A stretch of DNA of 64,000 bases from Microbacterium paraoxydans (lineage in GTDB: Bacteria > Actinomycetota > Actinomycetes > Actinomycetales > Microbacteriaceae): NCBI RefSeq assembly GCF_019056515.1, contig NZ_CP064873.1, positions 1,922,001-1,986,000 of the forward strand, given 5' to 3'. The notes under the pieces are model-generated. The model searched no databases, was not told the DNA's origin, and saw only the letters and a program-made list of their open reading frames with translations. Shown in pieces: positions 42,796-42,924 of the stretch. Both the position numbers and the translations under genes were made by a program. Position 1 is the first letter of the stretch. Every line of letters begins with the position of its first letter.

Positions 42796-42924
42796 GATGG
42801 GGCTTCTTCTCTTCGTCACAATGAACGGGCCAACACAAGCGCCGCGACGAGGCAGGCCCTAGCTCTAGGACTCGTCGCGGCAGCTAAGAAGAAGCAGACC
42901 GCCGAAAGGCATGTGGTCATGCTA
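42796..42924 (-). promoter_or_regulatory. leuA leader: leaderless promoter, hairpin and Leu-run/start-site complementarity
   Basis: A TAGCAT -10 (42919-42924) is followed six bases later by the ATG of a leader peptide gene. The RNA then has an 11-bp stem, GCCGCGACGAG with CTCGTCGCGGC (42871-42881 with 42841-42851), starting five bases after the Leu codons. The Leu-codon run (GCTTCTTCT, 42887-42895) is complementary over nine bases to AGAAGAAGC (42802-42810) just before the leuA ATG. A ribosome stalled at Leu codons would block both pairings and expose the leuA start; in leucine excess it would finish and release, allowing repression. No T-run follows the hairpin, so control of translation is as likely as transcription termination. 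Confidence 0.7.
42865..42912 (-). CDS. leuA leader peptide (15 residues, four consecutive Leu)
   Basis: MPFGGLLLLSCRDES, ending at TAG. Codons 6-9 are CTG CTT CTT CTT; CTT is rare in this GC-rich genome, as expected for a sensor of charged tRNA-Leu. The ATG follows a -10 box by six bases, so the ORF would be translated from a leaderless mRNA. Leucine leader peptides upstream of leuA are known in actinobacteria, and this one is a clear member by position and composition. A 34-codon ORF in another frame (42816-42920) lacks the Leu run and is rejected. Confidence 0.8.
   Translation of the reverse strand: MPFGGLLLLSCRDES

Follow-up and report, generated by a model that had tools for sequence, protein, structure and literature searches.

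In the classical proteobacterial leu and trp attenuators, the codons of a leader peptide sense charged tRNA and a terminator is required. In translational attenuation of the erm type, a stalled leader ribosome unmasks a start, the stalling being induced by a drug. Moreover, work by Canestrari from 2020 reportedly describes polycysteine leaderless ORFs of mycobacteria that exert cysteine-responsive control of operonic genes. The system closest to the locus analysed here is the LEU element, which was described by Seliverstov et al. in 2005 upstream of actinobacterial leuA (PMC1262725). It consists of a leader with a Leu run, a base stem in which the Leu codons pair with the Shine-Dalgarno (SD) region, and a pseudoknot. 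Its authors argued against both a riboswitch and attenuation and preferred a protein ligand (PMC1262725). Mutants of S. coelicolor (Craster 1999, cited in PMC1262725) are mentioned there in two passages: according to one, leader mutations had some effect that is inconsistent with classical attenuation, according to the other, mutations of the Leu codons were without influence on regulation. The title of the mutant study, as it stands in the reference list of PMC1262725, speaks of "paradoxical relationships". In S. lividans, the 15-residue LeuL1 (MRFGLLLLSCRGEGL) precedes leuA, and an excerpt of PMC8079986 describes it as leaderless and without a typical terminator. Finally, excerpts of two further papers report leucine leaders upstream of leuA in C. 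glutamicum and C. diphtheriae (PMC4046766, PMC5784534).

The window, a stretch of 64,000 nucleotides from Microbacterium paraoxydans, contains a leuA gene that is preceded by a short ORF and three helices, which we term H0, H1 and H2. The parts of this element are the following.

42919..42924, minus strand: -10-like box TAGCAT, separated from the leader ATG by the six bases GACCAC
42865..42912, minus strand: leader peptide ORF MPFGGLLLLSCRDES*, 15 codons plus stop, the stop codon at 42867-42865
42886..42897, minus strand: leader Leu codons 6-9, CTG CTT CTT CTT, the putative sensor
42871..42881, minus strand: 5' arm of H1, GCCGCGACGAG, inside the leader ORF
42841..42851, minus strand: 3' arm of H1, CUCGUCGCGGC
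42855..42859, minus strand: 5' strand of H2, GGGCC, in the H1 loop, candidate pseudoknot (complementarity, covariation)
42827..42831, minus strand: 3' strand of H2, GGCCC, outside the H1 hairpin (complementarity, covariation)
42802..42811, minus strand: 3' strand of H0 and ribosome-binding region of leuA (GAGAAGAAGC) (folding, covariation)
41041..42795, minus strand: leuA, 2-isopropylmalate synthase (NF002991 and TIGR00970 above cut-off, NCBIfam)

A preliminary description of this DNA had already listed several of these parts, all of which were recovered: the 15-codon ORF with four Leu codons, three of them CTT, and a -10 box six bases upstream (42912-42865, with TAGCAT at 42924-42919); an 11-bp stem just past the Leu run (42881-42871/42851-42841); and nine bases of the Leu run that are complementary to the sequence before the leuA ATG (42895-42887/42810-42802). 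In H0, GCUUCUUCU from within the Leu run faces AGAAGAAGC in nine Watson-Crick pairs, to which one G-U pair is added, and six bases separate the end of the helix from the leuA ATG (42795). H1 is an 11-bp hairpin which starts at the fifth base past the Leu run and whose loop contains both the leader stop codon and GGGCC. The pseudoknot helix H2 (GGGCC/GGCCC) is absent from the earlier list. A promoter scan of the element reported no promoter, and the -10 box is recognised by position alone; it is preceded by TG, in the style of an extended -10. Its position points to a probable leaderless transcription start of the leader.

How does this locus compare to the described systems? It has a Leu-run ORF before leuA, the Leu run pairs with the SD region of leuA and, as complementarity and covariation indicate, a two-helix pseudoknot lies inside the base stem. 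Its distribution is that of an actinobacterial element too, since R1, a covariance model built from 96 elements, has matches in 188 of the 197 genomes sampled from the class. We conclude that the window element is a further LEU element. Direct masking of leuA by the Leu codons, as proposed in the preliminary description, is possible through this pairing, but the idea is not new: the same pairing was published as the base stem of the LEU element (PMC1262725), and the preliminary description had rediscovered it independently. The 2005 description shares the Leu-run leader, the pairing of the run with the leuA SD region and the pseudoknot between them, and it describes no terminator; it differs in that the -10 box of the window makes the leader the probable start of its mRNA (PMC1262725). 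LeuL1 of S. lividans, as far as the excerpt describes it, shares the length of 15 residues, the leaderless start and the lack of a typical terminator; it comes from another genus, and the excerpt makes no mention of start masking (PMC8079986). A leaderless leucine leader, which had been called unusual, is therefore not unusual, given LeuL1 as excerpted and given that TANNNT is found 6 or 7 bases ahead of the leader start in 158 of the 159 leaders of genus and family. Going by its title, the Canestrari work concerns ORFs that are likewise leaderless, short and rich in codons for the relevant amino acid, which in that case is cysteine. As in erm-type attenuation, a stalled leader ribosome would free a masked start; here, however, the stall codons themselves would be the masking strand. 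Codon sensing would be shared with the classical leu/trp attenuator, but the terminator of the latter, a hairpin with a U run between leader and gene, was not found: a simple consensus scan of 42700-43050 detected no intrinsic terminator, which speaks against attenuation by such a terminator.

Searches with Rfam 15 assigned the element to no family at gathering score, nor to any at an E-value up to 5, and a T-box was among the families without a match on it. Annotation by Rfam alone is therefore expected to miss the element. The sole match at gathering score in the window is a tRNA-Asn (GTT) at 28857-28932 on the minus strand.

We analysed 286 leuA upstream regions, drawn from among the matches listed (51 from the genus, 109 from the family, 53 from the order and 73 from the class). 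A leader was called where an ORF no longer than 30 codons contained three or more Leu codons in a row; 277 of the regions have one, which supports the earlier assignment as a leucine leader peptide. Two of the nine regions without a leader (L003 and L092) are truncated by contig ends; for L070, L188, L192, L197, L211 and L248 no leader was called, yet the covariance model matches with E < 0.002. L212 has neither a leader nor a covariance-model match. TANNNT is present 5-8 bases upstream of the leader start in 245 of the 277 relatives with a leader. Moreover, the leader stop codon lies within the H1 loop in 273 of the 275 sequences scored, and in the 5' arm in the other two.

Chance controls were carried out on the window and on the relatives. 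The pairing score of H0 is reached by 14 of 20,000 random 28-base windows from the 64 kb. Among the 587 possible starts of frames with 300 codons or more, a set to which the leuA start belongs, it is reached by one. The fold of 42924-42776 has -56.0 kcal/mol (z -2.33), with 4 of 200 shuffles equally good, and the minimum-energy fold includes both H0 and H1. Among the 281 leuA upstream regions with the full 400 bases, 274 contain a leader, whereas one turned up in 22 of the reverse strands and in 18 of 562 dinucleotide shuffles. Leader and -10 box occur together in 242 regions (reverse strand, 0; shuffles, 1 of 562), and 234 regions combine these two with an H1 of 9 bp or more (reverse strand, 0; shuffles, 0 of 562).

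Covariation was analysed for each of the three helices. Alignment A1 contains 96 of 276 elements; near-duplicates, long linkers and short H1 were dropped and a per-group limit was applied. In these 96 relatives, H1 has 10 pairs, 959 of the 960 cells are paired, and six of the 10 pairs show changes on both sides. On four of five measures none of 500 shuffles reached these values, and on the fifth two did. The outermost of the 11 H1 pairs of the window is not kept, being paired in 19 of 96, while columns 21-23 and 65-67 are invariant in all 96. H2 falls into two registers in A1, with poor pair counts, and was assessed by per-sequence tests instead. In these tests the strands of H0 and H2 were re-paired with partners from other genomes, identical rows and rows short of loop or linker having been removed (n 49, 108, 46 and 70). 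The resulting z values, in which relatedness remains, are 1.5, 2.7, 5.5 and 7.2 for H2 in genus, family, order and class, and 1.3, 0, 0.3 and -0.6 for a control region upstream of the start. For H0 they are 1.1 in the genus, 6.5 in the family and, with leuA starts picked by start codon and SD score, which favours purine-rich regions, 2.1 in the order and 2.3 in the class.

A swap within one genome removes relatedness and is therefore stronger than swaps between genomes. In 29 genomes with elements before both leuA and leuC, the own partner of each strand was compared to that of the other element. For H0 the own partner is better in 17, worse in 6 and tied in 6 (p 0.007); the leuC row G136 is without the standard run anchor, and its removal gives 16/6/6 (p 0.009). 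The corresponding counts are 16/5/8 for H2 (p 0.011) and 14/3/12 for H1 (p 0.006), the latter from whole regions without preselected arms, since earlier H1 tests had used arms chosen beforehand for their best helix, were therefore biased and gave the stronger 19/0/10. By these sequence comparisons, all three helices covary, also between the leuA and leuC elements within one genome. The preliminary description had made conservation of the Leu run and of its complementarity one touchstone of its reading, and in the relatives both are kept and covary.

The 5' arm of H1 is also part of the leader frame. Here 38 and 21 of the 96 sequences deviate from the most frequent base at second positions of codons (columns 26 and 29), against 3, 5 and 1 at third positions (columns 24, 27 and 30), and the changes preserve pairing in all cells but one. 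Since second positions vary more than third positions while pairing is kept, the tail SCRDES is conserved as RNA, not as peptide. The Leu codons have a bias of their own: CUU accounts for 51.5% of 957 leader Leu codons versus 1.8% of 4301 leuA Leu codons (100 loci), a 29-fold difference, and in the genome of the window for three of the four leader Leu codons versus none of the 41 in leuA. This preference could reflect the use of a rare codon, the pairing with the purine-rich start region, or both.

Taken together, we consider it probable that the LEU element before leuA is a ribosome-operated translational switch, acting by stalling attenuation. Its leader ORF, with rare Leu codons, begins where the mRNA probably starts. 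When leucyl-tRNA is ample, the ribosome would finish the leader and leave, H1, H2 and H0 would close, and leuA would be masked. When leucyl-tRNA is short, the ribosome would stall on the Leu codons, thereby covering the 5' strand of H0 and leaving the start of leuA open to translation. In the folded free RNA, H0 has a probability of 0.97 and the SD region is paired at 0.82. Together with the covariation of H0, this supports the earlier claim that the Leu codons are able to mask the leuA start region. With a ribosome footprint whose A site is on Leu codons 6-9, H0 drops to 0 and pairing of the SD region to 0.14-0.26. Unmasking by stalling, as the preliminary description had it, would accord with this opening, but the leuA AUG is itself paired at 0.60-0.87 in the footprint folds, which come from a nested model that cannot include the pseudoknot. 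With footprints at codons 6 or 7, H1 stays formed (0.95). A ribosome at the leader stop codon leaves H0 open (0.01), and closure would therefore need release of the ribosome.

Elements of this kind are found at further genes. In the genome of the window, R1 identifies three strong copies, before leuA, leuC and a second leuA. The leuC element (L287:1483-1603) has the leader MRTVLLLSGRGETSI with a -10 box, TAACCT, six bases upstream; the third (L289:1477-1612) has the leader MRTSRFLLLRRHDGV and precedes a leuA paralogue 52% identical to LeuA. Weaker R1 matches in this genome (26.5 bits or less) appear to be chance hits, with neither leuA nor leuC adjoining those that were checked (L290, L291). 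R1 also matches 114 of the 118 genomes sampled from the family. Beyond the class, 91 genomes from the rest of the phylum gave one marginal match (E 0.0088). The best-scoring 30 leuC loci of a search across 60 family genomes, own genome included, have an R1 match with E < 1e-9 in 24 cases and a weak one of 27.3 bits in one more, and 23 of these 30 possess a leader with three or more Leu codons in a row. In two other families, an element precedes a second leuA (L307, L309, L311-L313). Finally, at L318, L319 and L320 the element, located in the first 180 bases of the strand, precedes a divergent leuA of 25-26% identity, which at L318 is a 2-isopropylmalate synthase by NCBIfam. The genomes of these three loci have no match to actinobacterial leuA at E 1e-150 among the matches listed, and the switch seems to have been retained while the gene was replaced.

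An altered set of sensor codons is found near leuB. At L306, in one genome, the H1-H2 scaffold carries the leader MRFVLILRCRDGA, with VLIL codons. In another family, 9 of the 21 closest leuB loci (L393, L395, L400, L402 and L404-L408) combine the scaffold with peptides of the form M-x-W-x-VRIL-x-[CR]R-[DG], whose start codons are our choice. The VRIL element is on the leuB strand in seven of the nine; the other two (L405:1247-1346 and L407:1201-1302, both on the minus strand) are opposite to leuB and face away from it, with no recognisable gene downstream on the strand of the element. Between element and leuB, L306 and five of the nine VRIL loci (L393, L395, L402, L404 and L406) contain a small ORF of about 32-35 residues by the nearer start, with the motif ..QE(A/S)MDRRD(N/Q)GG.. 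At L306 the altered codons CUCAUC are complementary to GAUGAG preceding this ORF. In the VRIL group, no clear pairing of the sensor codons with a start region was seen; the sensor strand pairs just after H1, and swapping the partners of this helix gave no signal (15.89 vs 16.10, 9 sequences). Downstream of leuB, L306 and seven of the nine VRIL loci have a stretch resembling the start of ilvE; the 83-residue piece analysed matches a branched-chain aminotransferase model below the full-length cut-off. IlvE serves all three branched-chain amino acids, which is in keeping with a leader that senses Val, Ile and Leu.

It is quite possible, although we stop short of calling it probable, that the LEU element is a portable translational switch: pathway-matched sensor codons (a Leu run, Val-Leu-Ile-Leu or Val-Arg-Ile-Leu) would be exchangeable on one hairpin-pseudoknot scaffold, with a leaderless frame running through one arm and stopping in the loop, before leuA, a second leuA, a divergent isopropylmalate synthase, leuC and leuB. 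The two of nine VRIL copies that face away from leuB lower our estimate. CUC and CUU codons resemble the anti-Shine-Dalgarno sequence, so that sensor and lock could share bases, which would make the Leu case especially simple.

The main rival to stalling is the proposal of 2005, in which a regulatory protein, a helicase of the ML1624 type, binds the pseudoknot and the Leu run does nothing but mask the SD region. The sequence of H1 is indeed kept beyond the needs of pairing, as the invariant columns demonstrate, and the S. coelicolor mutants, on the account given in PMC1262725, favour a protein and count against stalling. Against such a ligand, however, a frame with a start, a Leu run and a stop in the loop is preserved across the class, CUU is strongly enriched in the leader over leuA, and the sensor codons near leuB are those for Val, Ile and Leu; we regard it as unlikely. 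We think it quite unlikely that a leader ribosome, stalled or passing, sets intrinsic or Rho-dependent termination before leuA. Candidate attenuators of this type precede trp and ilvB in other actinobacteria (PMC1262725), but the simple scan of 42700-43050 for terminator-like sites was negative, and the target of H0 is the start region, with which it covaries. The window fold on its own, moderately unusual as it is, would even allow for a functionless short ORF beside a stem that arose in GC-rich DNA; this is exceedingly improbable, because the combination of leader, -10 box and H1 is absent from all shuffles and because the element is conserved.

Stalling attenuation is not free of difficulties either. 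Besides the mutants, the weak covariation of H0 in the genus, where its z value does not exceed that of the control, and its modest covariation in order and class count against it. So do the pairing of the leuA AUG once H0 opens, the intact H1 with stalls at codons 6 or 7, the open H0 with a ribosome at the stop codon, the VRIL group without a clear start-region pairing and its two copies opposite leuB. We favour it nevertheless, because the leader is kept at nearly all leuA loci with its stop in the H1 loop, because CUU is frequent in the leader and rare in leuA, and because H0, H1 and H2 covary, even between leuA and leuC in one genome. Furthermore, the H1 arm is kept as RNA, no intrinsic terminator was found, footprint folding opens H0, and the scaffolds next to leuB carry Val, Ile and Leu codons.

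The within-genome swap, the stop in the loop, the bias to rare codons and the Val/Ile/Leu variants yield predictions that separate stalling from a protein ligand. The placements before leuC, a second leuA, a divergent synthase and leuB are absent from the main text of PMC1262725, and among the papers listed in literature searches no other evidently reports them by its title. The relatives suggest that one device controls several genes of the leucine pathway. With this wider placement, what looked like an oddity of a single gene would become a leucine regulon across the class.
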